Below are positions 18,417 through 26,575 of a stretch of DNA of 64,000 bases, piece by piece (position 1 is the first letter of the stretch; each line of letters starts with the position of its first letter). A program made the translations under genes and the position numbers. The stretch comes from Choricystis sp. odSpoLacu1 (lineage: Eukaryota > Chlorophyta > Trebouxiophyceae): assembly GCA_958009055.1 (NCBI GenBank), contig OY253664.1, positions 248,001 to 312,000 on the forward strand, read 5' to 3'. The notes under the pieces are model-generated. The model saw nothing but the letters and a program-made list of their open reading frames with translations, did not search any database and was not told the DNA's origin.

Positions 18417-21400
18417 TCACCCTCCCCGCGGCCTTTTCTCCACGAAAAGCTTGTTGGCCAACCCGCCCGCCTGCATGCATGCCCCCCACGGCGTGGCAGC
18501 AGACGCCGCCCCCGCCAGCGCCGCGGTGAACCCCGCGTTGTACTCGATGCCAACCTCTGATTTCGCGTAGTTCATCCTGTCGTCGGGGAACGTGTCATTA
18601 AAATGAGGCCCACCCACGAGCGCACCATGCAGGACGTGGGGGTTGGGGTCGGGGGAGTGGAGCTGCAGGTAGTTGCAGGTGGCGGGTGGGGGAGGGCACG
18701 ACGCGGCGCGCTGGTGGGGTTGTTGCGGGAACGAGGCCCCCACGCCCACGACAAACGACTGGCGGTTGGGGTTGTCCCCCAGCATGTAGCGCAGCTGGGA
18801 CGTGGCCCAGCACTCGTAGGGGGCGCCCGCGTCGCGGCCCACGTGCTTGGCGTAGATGAAGGCGAGCAGGGCGCTGGAGGGTGGTGTGGTTTGTGTGAGG
18901 TGTTTTTTCTGCCCTCCCTCCTCACCCCACCACCCCACACACAACTCCCCACTCTTACCTGTTGGCCGAGTTGCGCAGCGTGCCCCAGTCATCCGCGTAC
19001 GCCAGCCCGCCCTTGGTCACGTTGACCGCGCTCCCGCGGCGCCACCCGTCCAGGAAGGCGCGCGTGCCGGCCACCAGCTTGGCATCACCAGTCACCCGCG
19101 CCAGCAGCAGCTGCGCGTTCCACGCCATGTTGTTCCAGTTGGACACGTAGTAGTACCAGCGCTCGGTCTCATGCTTCCAGGCGGCGGCCAGCCAGCCCGC
19201 GGCTTCGTCCGCGTAGGAGCGTTCCCCCGCCGCCAGCGCGATCCAGGACGCCGCCCACGCGAGGTCGTCCCGGTAGGCGGTGGACGTGTAGACGAGGCCC
19301 ATGGCGGGGACGGAGTCGGAGAAGCGGCCTTGGCGAGTCTGTGATGGGAGGTGGGGTGGGAAGGGTGAGTGTGGGCGCGGCCGCAAAGGACCCTCCTTAA
19401 CCCGCCCTCTCCCCACCCTCCCACCCACACCTTGGCAAACTTGTACAGCTTCTTGGCGTGCACGATGCACGTCCTCGCAAAGTTGGGGTCCCGCGTCTCA
19501 AACACTTTGGACGCGGCCGCCAGCGCGGCCGCGCCTTGGGCCGCCAGGTCGCTCCCCGGGTGTGTCGCGTTGATGACCAGGTAGGGGCGGGCCATGCCCA
19601 TGCCGTCCATGTCCTCGGGGCGGCCCCAGTAGTCGTGGTCGATCTTGAAGTCGCCGACCTGTGGGGTGGTGGTGGTGGTGGGGGGGGAGTGTGTGAGTGA
19701 TGGTGGTGTTGCTCCTCTCTCTCTCCTCCTCCACACCCCTCCCCACCCTCCAATCTTCTCTCACCTGCCCCACAAACTCTTCATCCTTGGTGTGGCATTT
19801 CAGCAGGTACTCGGCCGCGTGTCGAATGTGCCCCGCCGCGATGTCGGTCTGCCCCGCCGCGTCGTGGGCAGCGGGGAACTCCAGCAGGCCCCACGCCAGC
19901 AACGACGCAGACACGCCGATGCTCATGGAGGCTTTGATGTGGTCGCCCGCATCGTAGAACCCGCCCACCAGGTCGGCGCCGCGGGGGCCGGCGTCGTGCA
20001 TGGCCGAGTCGCCGCGCCACGGGACGCGGTTGCCCGGCCCCAGGGGGCCCGACTTTTGGGCGTCGTAAAACAGGTAGGCTTTCCCCAGGACGGCGCCATA
20101 GTCGAAGACGGGGGGCGCCAGCACGATGGCGGCGGTGAGGGCGGCGAGCGCAGCGGTCGCGCCGAGTGTGAGTGCAGCCGCGGTCGCGGCGCGCAGGCGG
20201 GCGCCGCGCGCGCCCAGGGTGTAAGCCAGCAGCAGGGCGGGGGGGCAGGCGGCGGCAATGCCCCATAGGGCGGCCACAGAGGCGAGGGGGGGGGGCGGCG
20301 CCGGCCGCGAGGAGGGCGCCAAAGTAGCACGCCGCGGCCGCGGCCGCGCCGCCCACGCCGACGGGGGCCCACACGTCGCGCAGGGCGCCCAGGCGCAGCG
20401 ACTCAAATGTGAGGGCGCCAAACTCGGCGCCACCCTCGGCGTCGGCGTCGGCGGTGGGGGCGGCGTCGACGTCCCACGCGGGGCGCACGCCCGGGCGCGT
20501 AGCCAGGGAGGCCAGCAGCTCTGGCATGGTGATGACGCGCTCCAGGGCGCCCGTGGACACACCCGTGCCACTGTAGCCGCCATCATCGTCAAACGCGGGG
20601 GCGGGGGCCGCGCGGCGGCGCACGGCGGAGCGAGGGGGGGGAGCGCGCGGCCGCGGCGGCCGCCTCGCCACCCCCCACCACGCGCGGCGACCCGGGCGCC
20701 CCGCGCGGGGTGCCGCCGCACCCGACGGCCGCCCCCGTCTTGAGCGTGGTCTTGAAGCGGGCGGGAGGCTTGAGCCCCAGGGCACGCAGGGCCGAGTTGA
20801 AGGTCGCTTTCGCGTAGCTCCACCACAGCAGCCGCCCCGACACCCCATTGAACAGCAGGGCGCGCAGCAGGCGGGGGCCGCAGGGGATGCAGAAGGCGAC
20901 CGCGTGCAGCAGGGCGACATGGGGGATGAGGGCGCGGGCCAGGGCGGGGGTCAGCGCAGCGGGGGCCACGCTCCACTTGGCCACGATGGCGGGCGCCAGC
21001 GCCAGCAGGGGGGCGGCGGCCGCGGTGGCGGCAAAGCTGATGAAGCCGGAGGCGTAGATGAGGCGGCAGGCGAGGGGCAGGCCGGGGCGAAGAAGAGGGT
21101 TGTCGGACCGCGAGAAGAACGCGGCGGCGTGGCCTTTCGCCCAGCGCGAGCGCTGGCGGAAGATGGCGCCCTGCTCGGGGGCTTCCCCGACGGCCAGGTA
21201 GCGGGGCACGTAGCGCATCTCGTAGCCGGCAGCCTGCGGGGAGGAAAGAGGCGTGAGTGAGTGTGGGAGCGTGAGAGGAACAACCGCACGCTTCCCCCTC
21301 TCCTCCTACTCCCTCTTCCATCCACACACACGCACCTTCAAATTCATGCCCAGCACGTGGTCCTCCGTCACACTGCGCTCGGGGAAACCGCCCACCGCCG

Positions 21401-22593
21401 CCAGCGCGCCCGCCCGCAGCAGCAGGTTGGAGCCGGTGCACACGACGGCGCCCCACGCGGCGACACCAGGCATCACCGCCTCCCAGAAGTGGGCGTTGCC
21501 GTGGTTGAACACGTCGGCCGCGTCGTCCACATTGGCAAAGCGTTGGGGGGTGAGGACGAGGGCGACGGAGGGGGAGGAGGCGAGGGGGGGGAGGGCCCGC
21601 TTGAAAAAGTCGGGGGACGCGACCTGGTCGGCGTCGAAGACGGCGATGGCGTCGGTGTCGGGGACTTCGGAGCCGGCCGGGTAGATGAGGTAAAGGGCGT
21701 GGTTGAGGTTGGCGGCTTTGCCGTTGAGTTCGCCTTGGGAGGGGGGGTGAGGGAGAGGGACGGTGAGCGTCGCCGCGGCGTCCGTATCGCGTTTTGACCC
21801 TCCCTCCCAACCAACCTCCTTCTCTCTCACCTTGCCCCCTCGGCCGCCCCGACACGTAGCGCACGCCCTCATCCTTCAGAGACGCCACCCACGCCGCCTT
21901 GGCGGGGTCGTTGCCGTCGTCCAGCAGCCACACGGTGCGGGTCGCCCCCGCCGGCAGGTCGGCCGCGTGCAGCGCCCACACCGTCTCAGCCACGATGTCC
22001 ACCGCCTCCGTGTAGCAGGGGATGAGGACGTGAATGTGGTAGGGGAGGCGGGTGCCGGCGGGCGCGGGGCCGGGGGGGGCGGGGGCGCGGCGGCACGCGC
22101 ACATGCCAAACAGCGCGACCGCGGTGCAGCCCAGCATTTCGACGGCGAACACGAGGACGGCGTACCTGGGAAGGGGGAGGGAAATGTCAGCTATGCAACG
22201 CGCTGGGTCCGAGGGTTTGGGGAGGGGCGGGCGAGGCGGGCGGCGATGGGTCCATGCCGTTCGTGCGCGCGCGCCCGCACGCGCGCGGCATTGGGCTCTT
22301 TGCCCGTCGTTTTGCCACCCCCTCCTCCTCTCCACCACCCACTCACCACGTGTACTGGCCCAAGTCCAGGCTCGTCGTGGCCCGCACGTACGCGTAGTGC
22401 GCCCACACGACCAGGTAGGCGCCCCACAACACCGCGCGCGCGCGCGGCGCCACGACGAGCGCTGCGCGGCGGGGGCGGGGGCGGCGCCACCCCCCGCCGC
22501 CTTGACAGACGGCGGATGCGCGGCCGTCACCTCAGCCTCGGCGGCGGCGTCGCCGGCGCCGCGCGTGCGCACGCGCAGGCCGTCGCGCGCCAT
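18417..22593 (-). CDS. cellulose-synthase-type GT2 fused to GH9 endoglucanase
   Basis: One gene apparently encodes both a processive beta-glycan synthase and a membrane-tethered cellulase. Exons (minus): 22347-22593, 21831-22165, 21336-21733, 19765-21233, 19431-19658, 18959-19338 and 18417-18873, in phase, about 1170 aa. After a disordered N-terminus come two membrane segments, then the GT2 core: HVLIPCYTEA, WLLDDGNDP, NGKAANLNHAL, AVFDADQ, GSNLLLRAGALAAVGGF, VTEDHVLGM and RQRSRWAKG (D, DxD, TED, QxxRW). Several hydrophobic helices lead straight into GH9: DLVGGFYDAGDHIK, GGLAYADDWGTLRNSAN, LRYMLGDNPNRQSF, QQPHQRAASCP and SEVGIEYNAGF. The GT2 is closer to bacterial BcsA than to plant CesA, as no plant-specific insertion is seen. 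Two one-base C-run breaks occur in exon 4 (near 20633 and 20290); discounting both restores the length to a multiple of three. Confidence 0.85.
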
Positions 22594-22956: not shown

Positions 22957-25900
22957 ATGGCCGACGACCTGGAGCGCGCCGTCCTGTTCAGCTTTGACCA
23001 GACGGGGTCGGCGTCGCCCGAGCTCAAGGTGTGGGTGGTGGTGGTGGTGGGGAGGGTGTTTGCCTTTTCCTTCACGTGTCGGTTTTTCTCACCCACCCCC
23101 CTTTCCACCCACAGGCCCGCGCCCAAGCCTACCTGGACGCCGTGCGCGCCTCCCCCGACGGGTGGCGCGGCTGCCTGGCCCGGGCGGCGGAGCCGGGGGC
23201 GCCGGCGGAGGCTCGTTTTTGGTGTCTGCAAACGCTGCACGAGGTGGGAAAAGGGTTAAAAGGTAGGAAAGAGGGTTTCACCGCCTCTCCCCGGCTCTGC
23301 ATCAGACTCACACAACAGAACACGCACAAACCACCCCCAGCGCGTCACCTCGGGCCGCCACGCTGCCGCCCCCCCTGCCGACCGCGCCGCGCTGCGGGCC
23401 GGCGCGCTCGCGTGGCTCGCGCCCCCCCCCGCCCGGCGCGCCCGACCCCCCCCCCTTTGTGCGCAACAAGGGCGCCCAACTGCTGGCCGCCCTGACGGCG
23501 GCCGACTACCCGGCCGAGTGGCCCGAGTTTGTGGATGCCGCCCTGGCTGCTGCAGCGCGCGGGGCAGGCACCGGCGACACCCCTCCCTGCCCCGCCTCCG
23601 CGGACGCCTTTGTCCGCCTGCTGACCGCCCTGGATGACGATGTCATCGCGCTGGACGTGCCGCGGACGGCGGCTGCTGCCGCGGCGGGGGCCGCTTTGAA
23701 GGACGCGCTGCGGGGGGCGCCCCTCGCGGCTCTAGTGGACGGCCTCTGCCGCGTGGCAGCCGCCGCCGCCCCGGCCCGCCCCTCCCTTTCAGCAGCCGCT
23801 CTGTCCGTCGTCGGCCGCCTGGCCGCCTGGGGCGACATCGGCACCGTGGCATCGGGTGGTGTCGTGGCTTTGTTGTTTGGCGCGCTCGATGCTCCTGGCG
23901 CCCGTGCCGCCCCTGCCGCTGCAGCCGCGGGCGCCCTGGCCGCCATCGCGGCCAAACGCATGGAGGCGCCCGCCAAACTGGCCCTGCTGGCGGACAGTGG
24001 TCTCGCCGCCCGAGCGGCGGCGTGGGCGGCGGCCGCGGCGGCACACAGCACAGGCGCGCCCGCCCCCGCCCCCGCCCCTCCCCGCCGCGCGCGCGGCGCC
24101 GCGGTGCGCCTGCTGGCCGTCGTGGCGGGCGAAGTGTTGGACGCCTGGAAACGGGTGGAGGGTGGCGTCGCGGGCCTGGCGTCGTGTGGGTTGGAGGTGC
24201 CTCCGGACGCAGCCGCCGACGCGGCGGCCGCGTGCGGCGCGGCAGAAGGTCTCCTGGACGGCCTCCTGCCCCCCCTCGTGGCCGCCCTGCCCGCCCTGGC
24301 CCACTGTGGCGCGAGCCATGGGCGGGCGGCGTCGTGCTCTGCCTCGGAAGCGTCCAGTTTCAATGGCGACGCGGGGGGTGCGCACGCAGATGGTGACGCT
24401 GACGACGACGACGACGCGGACGCCGGCTCCTACGCTGCTGTCGCCTTCCTCACCGCCTACATCGCCCGCCTGCGCGCCCTCGCCAAGCGGGCGGGAGATG
24501 GCGGCCTGCCCCCCGGCGCGGGGAGGCACGTGGCTTCCATTTTAACCGCTGCCGCCGACGCCGCGCGCTGGCCGGCGACCGCCCCCCCCGCCCACCCCTC
24601 CCCCGCGGACGCGGACGCAGAGGATGCAGCGGTCGAGCGCCGTGCCGAACTGTTCGCCCTGGTGCGGGTGGCGGCGTCGTTGGATGCTGATGGTGCGGCT
24701 GCCGCCGTCGCGCGCGGACTGGACGCCGTCCTTCAACCTCGCTCCCCCCCTCCCCCCTTCCACGAAGTCGAGATCGCCATCGCCTGCCTCTACCACCTGG
24801 GCGAAGGCGCCCCCGAAGCCGCCGTCCGGCCTGCGGGGGCGCTGGGGTCTGCGGCTCGCGCGCTCGCGGCGGCGGGGTGTGGCGTCCCGCACGCGACCCA
24901 CCGCCTCGTGGCGGCCTCCCTGTTTGAGTGCCACGCCCGCTACGCGCGCGCCATTGGGGCTGATGCTGCTGCTTTGGGTGCAGCAGCAGCAGCGTTTTTA
25001 TCCGACGCGGGCGCTGCCCACGCCGACGCGCGGGTGGCCGCACGAGCTTCCTACCTTTTCGCTCGCTTTGCGCGCACCCTGCGCCAACCCCTGCTGGCCC
25101 GCCTGCCGACCCTGCTGCCCGCGCTGCGCCCCCTTCTCGACGATGTCGTCCAGGGCGCGGGAGAGAGAGCGGTGGGGCGGGGCGGGCGGGCGGCGGAGGC
25201 GGCAGCAGCCGGTCACGGCGGCAGCAGCAGCGCCCCCCGCGAAAAGAGTGACGATCGACTGTACCTCTTTGAAGCCGCGGGCCTCCTGCTCGGCCAGGCG
25301 GAGCTCGACCCCGCCGCCCAGCTGGACGCGGTGCACGCCCTGGTGGACCCTCCCCTGGCCGCCCTGGCGGCCGCGTTGCCGGCTGCTGCCGCGGCGGGGG
25401 GTGGGCCGGCAACTGCCGCGGCGGCTGCCACCGTTCGGACGGCGCTCGACGCGCTCGCGCGGTCGGCGCGCGGCTTCTCCCCCTCCCTCGCCCTGCGCGT
25501 CCGCCCCGCCGTCGGCGCCGCCCTGGCCCCGGCGGCTGATGCGGCCGTCGCTGTGCTCACACGGGCGGGGGGCGGGGCGGGCGCCCCCCCGGGCCGCCGC
25601 GCGCTGCGCGCGCGCGCCGCGTCGCTGCTGCACCGTTTGGTGGACACTCTAGGCCCCGCCCTCCTCCCCCTCCTCCCCGCCGCCGCCCGCGCCCTGCTGC
25701 CGACTCCTCCGTCTCCTTGTGATGTTGTCGATGCGGCCGCCCTGGTGGCTCAACTGGCGGCCGCGTATGGAGGGGATGCCGCGCCGTTGATGGCGGCGGT
25801 CCTGCCCGACATCGCCTCGGCCGCCGCCTCCGTCCTGCCCCCCGACCACGACTGGACAGGGGCGGCGGCGGCACCCCGGCGCCTGGGTGGTGATGGTGGT

Positions 25901-26575
25901 GGTGGTGGCGCCACCCCACCCCACCCCTCCGACGCCCCCCCTCCCCCCTCGGAAGAAGCGCGCGAGCGGGGCGCCGTCCAGCGCGCGCTCCTCGCCCTCA
26001 CCCACGCCCTCGCCTCCGCCCGCCTGGGCGCCGTCGCCCTGGCCGCCGCGTCGGGGCTGCTGGACGTGCTGCTGGCGTCCGCCTCCGCCCACGTGGACCC
26101 CGTGGTGCGGCGGGCGTGTGTGCAGAGTGTGCGGCGCCTCGTGGCGGACGCGGCCGCCGCGACGCCGCCGTCGCTGGCGCTGCCCCCCTTCCTGCGGGAC
26201 GCCGTCGTGCGCCGCGTCTGCCTGGCCGGCCTCGCGTCCTCCCGCCTGGACGCGCGGGATGGCGTGGTGGCGGCGTTGGTGGGGGATGTGGCCGCGTTGC
26301 TGGTGGACGCGGTGGCCGCCGCGCGCGCGCTCGTGGCCGCGGGGGTCGAGACGGCGGCCCCCATCGACGTCGCGGCCGACGCGGCCGCCGCCGGCTTCCC
26401 GCCCGCCGTGGCGGCCGCGGTGGCGGCCGCCATGGACGCGGGCGACGCCAAAGCCGCGCGCGCGGCGTTGAGGGGGGGGCTGCTGGAGATCGCGGGCGGC
26501 GCGGCGGCGGCGGCGTCGGCGGCCGCGCGCGCGCGCGCGTCGCGGCGCGCGCGGCAGCGGCGGCAGGCGGGGTGA
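22957..26575 (+). CDS. XPOT: exportin-T, tRNA nuclear export receptor
   Basis: Karyopherin that carries tRNA out of the nucleus with Ran-GTP (LOS1 in yeast, PAUSED in plants). Exons: 22957-23028, 23115-23243 and 23341-26575. The first two encode MADDLERAVLFSFDQTGSAS and FWCLQTLHE. Exon 3 carries FVRNKGAQLLAALTAADYPA and EWPEFVDAALAAA, then FVRLLTALDDDVIALDVPRT, which aligns well with exportin-T. The rest is Ala-rich HEAT-like helices, ending with SASAHVDPVVRRACVQSVRR. One frame change is needed in the C runs at about 23427-23457, just before FVRNKG. The remaining >1000 codons are open. Length is typical. Confidence 0.9.

Follow-up and report, generated by a model that had tools for sequence, protein, structure and literature searches.

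In Choricystis sp. odSpoLacu1, a green alga of the Trebouxiophyceae, we examined a gene in which a cellulose-synthase-type glycosyltransferase of family 2 (GT2) is followed by an endoglucanase domain of glycoside hydrolase family 9 (GH9). The gene lies on the minus strand at 22593-18417 of a stretch of 64,000 nucleotides (C16:248001-312000 of contig OY253664.1; hereafter the window), which belongs to a genome of 14.6 Mb in 19 contigs and has a high GC content (57-78% per 2 kb).

Gene model and domain composition

The gene is composed of seven exons and six introns, all of which are bounded by GT-AG and have lengths of 85-181 bp (Table 1). This exon structure, proposed initially in a sequence-only reading of the window, is borne out by the coding signal and by a spliced alignment with the Elliptochloris relative P0004 as guide, which placed every splice site from the end of exon 1 to the start of exon 7 at the same position; this alignment also put in two short upstream stretches, which we regard as noise.

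The GT2 half matches PF13632, PF13641, PF13506, and PF00535 above cut-off and contains DDG, DAD, TED, and QRSRW, i.e., the full motif set (DDG, DxD, TED, QxxRW) named in the sequence-only reading, as well as FKTTLK. A GT2 fold with flanking membrane helices places the protein in the cellulose synthase type (BcsA/CesA). The solved structures nearest to the GT2 domain by sequence are those of BcsA (PDB 5ej1, 4hg6, 9fnn; E 6e-28 with the single sequence, E 5e-46 with a profile of five GT2 sequences), CslF6 and plant CesA structures being weaker matches, and in a fold search with the structure model of the relative P0001 BcsA was the best among the GT2 rows listed. The GH9 half covers positions 1-444 of the 444 of PF00759 (E 3.2e-124), so that the domain, described before as near-complete, is in fact complete. 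Both aspartates of DAGD and the glutamate of SEV, which we take to be the catalytic residues from their role in other GH9 enzymes, are kept.

Table 1 Features of the fusion gene and its surroundings in the window
Feature	Position	Strand	Content	Evidence
Exon 1	22347..22593	-	ATG, N-terminal tail, first hydrophobic stretch VLWGAYLVVWAHYAYV; third frame break at ~22500-22440	coding signal in frame 0, then frame 2
Exon 2	21831..22165	-	second helix, GT2 start, DDG at 21921-21913	motifs, domain match, coding signal, spliced alignment, hydropathy
Exon 3	21336..21733	-	GT2 core, DAD at 21635-21627, TED at 21368-21360	motifs, domain match, coding signal, spliced alignment
Exon 4	19765..21233	-	QRSRW at 21155-21141, gating-loop-like FKTTLK at 20756-20739, linker, three hydrophobic helices, GH9 start with DAGD at 19953-19942	motifs, coding signal, spliced alignment, relatives, hydropathy
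C8 run	20634..20641	-	first frame break of exon 4	coding signal
Predicted helix TM5	20306..20362	-	residues 618-636 of the read-through model	hydropathy, matching helix in P0001 structure model
C10 run	20286..20295	-	second frame break of exon 4	coding signal
Predicted helix TM6	20230..20286	-	residues 643-661	hydropathy, P0001 model
Predicted helix TM7	20119..20175	-	residues 680-698, directly before GH9	hydropathy, P0001 model
Exon 5	19431..19658	-	GH9	domain match, coding signal, spliced alignment
Exon 6	18959..19338	-	GH9	domain match, coding signal, spliced alignment
Exon 7	18417..18873	-	GH9 end, catalytic Glu at 18557-18555, stop	domain match, coding signal, motif columns
eL29	17604-17437	-	ribosomal protein, downstream
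SfsA-domain protein	16966-16061	-	downstream
Exportin	23267-26572	+	divergent neighbour, Exportin-T/Xpo1	matches to PF19282, PF08389

Frame breaks and integrity of the gene

In the sequence-only reading, GT2 was taken to end and GH9 to begin within the largest exon, without a stop between them once two indels in runs of C were discounted. Both borders indeed lie inside exon 4, but this exon is not open as it stands, since it is broken at the C8 and C10 runs, and a third break, located in a GC-repeat stretch of exon 1, had been overlooked. The codon bias of exon 4 follows frame 0 up to the C8 run, frame 1 up to the C10 run, and frame 2 thereafter, as judged by a codon model trained on the GT2 and GH9 ends of the same gene with the middle stretch excluded. 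All nine relatives compared read straight through both break points of exon 4 and have linker motifs in common. Four exonic runs comprise eight or more bases (34 of 3514 coding bases) and two of these coincide with breaks; the chance of two breaks landing in the four long runs is roughly 1 in 10,000. Most likely, the three breaks are sequence errors at GC-rich runs.

If they were real mutations, the window copy would be a decaying pseudogene of a genuine GT2-GH9 family. Three breaks in one copy fit such a history, and a further GT2-GH9 gene of the same genome, C4a (C4:313.6-317.8 kb, L034), combines a single frame break with two TAA codons in frame at sites of tyrosine in its relatives and is possibly itself decaying or badly read; moreover, the models of the paralogs C1a, C12, C7, and C1b need no frame break, and breaks are therefore not found everywhere in the assembly. 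The window gene, however, has no in-frame stops beyond those created by the breaks, the two exon-4 breaks fall on runs of C (C8, C10) and that of exon 1 in the GC-repeat stretch, and the codon bias and every catalytic residue are retained. The stand-alone GH9 locus C4b (C4:1139489-1141023, L037) likewise has its single frame break where the sequence is rich in G and C, and this suggests indel errors of the assembly. We regard decay of the window copy as unlikely.

In the sequence as read, the GT2 part runs into a stop at ~20590, after which the next frame offers an ATG, and two-gene transcripts occur in green algae; the locus might accordingly be divided between a GT2 gene that terminates at ~20590 and a separate GH9 gene whose start would be the methionine of MPEL (~20527), both perhaps on one such transcript. 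We rejected this arrangement, which we consider very improbable, because positions 20633-20544, upstream of the MPEL methionine, are already coding in the second frame, relatives have GT2 and GH9 in one chain with a conserved linker, and C1a links both domains within one open exon. The latter is a single open frame of 510 codons with the FKTT motif and GH9, and 1 in 1000 first-order random sequences stayed open. The proposal of a single GT2-GH9 protein thus draws support from relatives without interruption at the joint and from the open exon of C1a.

The genes around the fusion gene are ordinary ones, encoding an SfsA-domain protein, eL29, and an exportin (Table 1).

Paralogs in the same genome

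The genome contains at least seven GH9 loci, and in six of these seven the gene model also includes a GT2 domain. The order is GT2-GH9 in the window gene, C12, C1a, and C4a and GH9-GT2 in C7 and C1b; C4b is the sole GH9 locus found without GT2. The models of C12, C1a, and C4a were built with the database protein P0011 as guide, and that of C1a skips the DDG stretch because the guide lacks it, although the open frame of C1a does contain DDG. Two further loci, C3 and C5, carry GT2 without GH9. C3 (L035) and the database proteins P0012, P0023, and P0024, all without GH9, have in common a C-terminal tail (LPPHIRGDAFG...) at the place where GH9 would begin, and P0023 and C3 are identical over their GT2 rows.

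The reversed paralogs C7 (C7:11309-4560, L030; 1999 residues) and C1b (C1 ~765.0-771.6 kb, L031; 1994 residues) are 80.6% identical and free of frame breaks. C7 opens with a signal-peptide-like start (judged by eye) and GH9 (PF00759, E 1.5e-50); a single hydrophobic helix separates these from ankyrin repeats (PF13637, E 7e-6), which are followed by further helices and GT2 (PF03552, E 2.8e-24). In both genes GH9 ends in an open exon of ~600 codons that goes on through the ankyrin repeats and into a GT2 helix, the remainder of which lies past an intron (VVFWLTE/AFGFIMW); because one exon spans these parts, a division into separate genes would be hard to make. The differences between C7 and C1b over 1990 codons number 276, 218, and 560 at the three codon positions, the third being the highest in all three parts. 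The same reversed order is present in the database protein P0018 (77% identity; one intron read through). Ankyrin-GT2 proteins of Nannochloris sp. 'desiccata' (P0019-P0021) have the ankyrin-GT2 core in common with C7 and C1b, P0019 and P0020 aligning to C7 over this core; GH9 was not found in them.

Fusions among database relatives

A first search returned 17 proteins with E <=0.001 among 8000 candidates scored, a GT2-profile search 89 proteins with E <=1e-5, and a search with the reversed paralogs five, giving a total of 100 distinct database proteins. Both domains were recognized in 27 of these 100 with profiles made for this analysis, in the order GT2-GH9 in 26 and GH9-GT2 in one (P0018); several of these sequences are fragmentary or derive from models that read through introns. 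Ten of the fusions come from seven named strains, all of them Trebouxiophyceae in the NCBI taxonomy: Elliptochloris bilobata (two), Symbiochloris irregularis (three), Botryococcus braunii, Coccomyxa viridis, two Trebouxia strains, and Myrmecia bisecta. A Coccomyxa subellipsoidea protein (P0030) has GT2 only. A fusion confined to this assembly was rejected, as the same fusion occurs in database relatives. Two models may be mergers: that of P0004 (Elliptochloris) also includes a kinesin domain, and that of P0013 (Scenedesmus) joins GT2 to a V-ATPase F subunit.

Catalytic residues of the fused domains

The GT2 motif residues are intact wherever readable in 41 rows, with GED in place of TED in Myrmecia as the exception. 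The column of the GH9 catalytic glutamate could be read in 24 of 33 fusions (27 from the database and six from this genome; nine unread). The glutamate is kept in ten (the window protein, C7, C1b, P0001, P0002, P0004, P0005, P0018, P0045, and P0050) and replaced in 14 (C12, C1a, C4a, P0011, P0014, P0028, P0029, P0031, P0032, P0042, and P0046-P0049). Among the latter, the first aspartate of DAGD is lost in 13 (not in P0048) and the second in 12 (not in C12 and P0048). The idea of a hard-wired editing cellulase, put forward in the sequence-only reading, would therefore suit the window copy, the GH9 catalytic residues of which are intact, but fails for the family as a whole, because 14 of the 24 readable domains lack the catalytic glutamate.

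Phylogeny and number of fusion events

The GT2 tree was calculated in a quick run with 53 of 108 GT2-bearing sequences, hand-picked without fragments and near copies, and in a careful run with 50 rows after removal of P0080, P0084, and P0016. The window protein groups with P0006, P0003, and P0001 (100/100) within a chlorophyte clade of 37 rows (100/100), to which the Coccomyxa viridis fusion P0028 also belongs. C7, C1b, and P0018 (100/99) join Nannochloris (100/96) outside this clade. From the position of the reversed genes on a separate GT2 lineage we conclude that GT2 and GH9 appear to have been fused at least twice. A single clade of all 26 GH9-bearing GT2 rows was rejected (approximately unbiased test, p-AU 1e-52), a result that is weak for the reversed case alone, as GT2-only rows are also forced out; placing the reversed rows with the 37-row clade without Nannochloris was rejected moderately (p 0.02).

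Within the 37-row clade, GH9 is absent from the C3 type, the C5/Coccomyxa type, Scenedesmus/Tetradesmus, and P0036, which is most simply explained by loss, with the proviso that database models may be incomplete. Apatococcus P0025 is not evidence for such a loss, because this record, flagged as partial, breaks off at the GH9 border.

The GH9 tree (26 of 34 GH9-bearing sequences plus four bacterial ones) contains an active window-type clade of seven rows, which is starred (99). Fourteen of the 15 rows labelled 'dead' stand together (85, not starred), the Myrmecia row stands with the active P0050 (81), and C7 and C1b are apart on a long branch (100). These labels are weak in places, as P0044 is called 'dead' without a readable catalytic GH9 column and the glutamate column of P0026 and P0033 is unreadable, and the long branches of Myrmecia, P0050, and C4a leave the finer branching order unsure.

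Membrane topology and proposed mechanism

A hydropathy scan of the window protein gives helices in a 1-2-3 pattern; the hydrophobic stretch of exon 1 was recognized by eye and by alignment and falls under the cut-off of the scan. For the product, the sidedness, and the activity and role of the GH9 domain we infer the following. The single gene would encode a polytopic glucan synthase joined to an endoglucanase. With UDP-glucose as substrate, the cytosolic GT2 domain would polymerise a β-1,4-glucan, most probably cellulose, and the membrane helices of the same protein would carry the chain across. These helices would number seven, of which two precede GT2, two follow it, and three lie beyond FKTTLK. 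This count would bring the C-terminus, and with it the GH9 domain, to the outside of the membrane beside the channel exit, where the domain could cut, release, or edit the chain as it emerges, in the manner of the separate partners in plants (KORRIGAN) and bacteria (BcsZ). For the 'dead' subclade, we would expect GH9 to handle glucan without cutting. It is likely, in our judgement, that the window gene encodes a membrane glucan synthase with a fused, catalytically intact endoglucanase at the outer end of the channel that trims or releases the nascent chain.

Several observations weigh against this interpretation. The full 2-2-3 helix pattern was obtained by hydropathy for only one of 19 proteins (P0011; C7 was set aside for an extra helix on the GH9 side), with three helices after the FKTTLK-type motif in 13 of 19 and two between QxxRW and this motif in nine of 19, and in the model of P0001 a part of the first helix after the linker has a predicted local distance difference test score (pLDDT) below 50. 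Given this variation in the hydropathy patterns, seven is a best estimate of the helix number, and so is the position of GH9 outside the membrane. The GT2 half reaches 148.2 bits with the bacterial cellulose synthase model TIGR03030, the curated cut-off of which is 699.1, and has no match to PF03552 (plant-type CesA) up to E 0.001, nor does the locus in a genome search; for these reasons the assignment of cellulose as the product is tentative. As read, the frame is broken three times. The signals TGTAA and AATAAA/ATTAAA are absent mid-gene, which says little, because they are absent just past the true stop as well.

It is rather unlikely that the fused GH9 serves mainly to bind and guide the glucan and that, even in the window type, it cuts only as a minor function or not at all. 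Consistent with such a role, the domain is retained in related fusions despite the loss of the glutamate, and the GH6 domain at the C-terminus of tunicate CesA is described in passages of two reports as lacking the catalytic aspartate (PMC7464555, PMC10334666). The window clade, on the other hand, keeps both aspartates of DAGD and the glutamate of SEV wherever they are readable.

Relation to known systems

In bacteria, BcsA, which has a PilZ domain, pairs with a separate GH8 cellulase (BcsZ), and in plants the GH9 enzyme KORRIGAN and CesA are separate proteins. The window protein differs from BcsA in its C-terminal GH9. KORRIGAN is a stand-alone membrane GH9, and the window GH9, which follows GT2 in the same model, is not of this type, although KORRIGAN, too, is reported to act with the cellulose synthase machinery (PMC4226561). 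Tunicate CesA resembles the window protein as a cellulose synthase with a C-terminal hydrolase domain and differs from it in that this domain is, according to the passages mentioned above, a GH6 without catalytic aspartate instead of a GH9 with its catalytic residues; it may be viewed as a parallel to the 'dead' algal GH9.

Whether a GT2-GH9 fusion had been described was left open in the sequence-only reading. The fusion is not new, because a passage of Blanc et al. (2012; Genome Biol 13:R39, PMC3446292) reports that Coccomyxa subellipsoidea C-169 has four GH9 domains joined to domains of the cellulose-synthase-like type, and likens them to tunicate CesA. These proteins resemble the window protein in having the same two domains in one protein of a trebouxiophyte host, a likeness by domain content, as domain order, residue state, topology, and mechanism are not given in the passages concerned. 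The window copy itself belongs to this algal GT2-GH9 fusion type only with its three frame breaks read through. A search of the open-licence literature, as far as its passages reach, yielded no description of a reversed GH9-GT2 order or of catalytic loss in algal fusions; passages of PMC10762512, PMC5977491, PMC9915684, and PMC4981690 contain no algal GT2-GH9 fusion, and those of PMC4023592 none of the terms sought. Beyond the report of Blanc et al. (2012), the reversed order, the catalytic loss, and the sharing of a gene model with GT2 by six of the seven GH9 loci found were not encountered in the literature searched.

Implications

The requirement for a cellulase in cellulose synthesis is a long-standing puzzle in plants and bacteria, both of which have synthase and cellulase as separate proteins. 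Fusing synthase and cellulase fixes their place and ratio. We consider it quite probable that cellulose-synthase-type GT2 and GH9 became joined in trebouxiophyte-type algae on two or more occasions and at opposite ends (GT2-GH9 and GH9-TM-ankyrin-TM-GT2, where TM denotes transmembrane helices), with GH9 predicted outside the cell in both, that a part of the GT2-GH9 family keeps a GH9 without catalytic residues, and that one genome has active, 'dead', and reversed forms. The repeated algal fusion, together with the separate GT2-GH6 case of the tunicates, suggests selection for holding synthase and hydrolase together. If this is true, the active, 'dead', and reversed fusions of one genome would constitute a natural experiment on the role of the cellulase for cellulose synthase, in which it may be asked whether cutting, binding, or mere presence is decisive.

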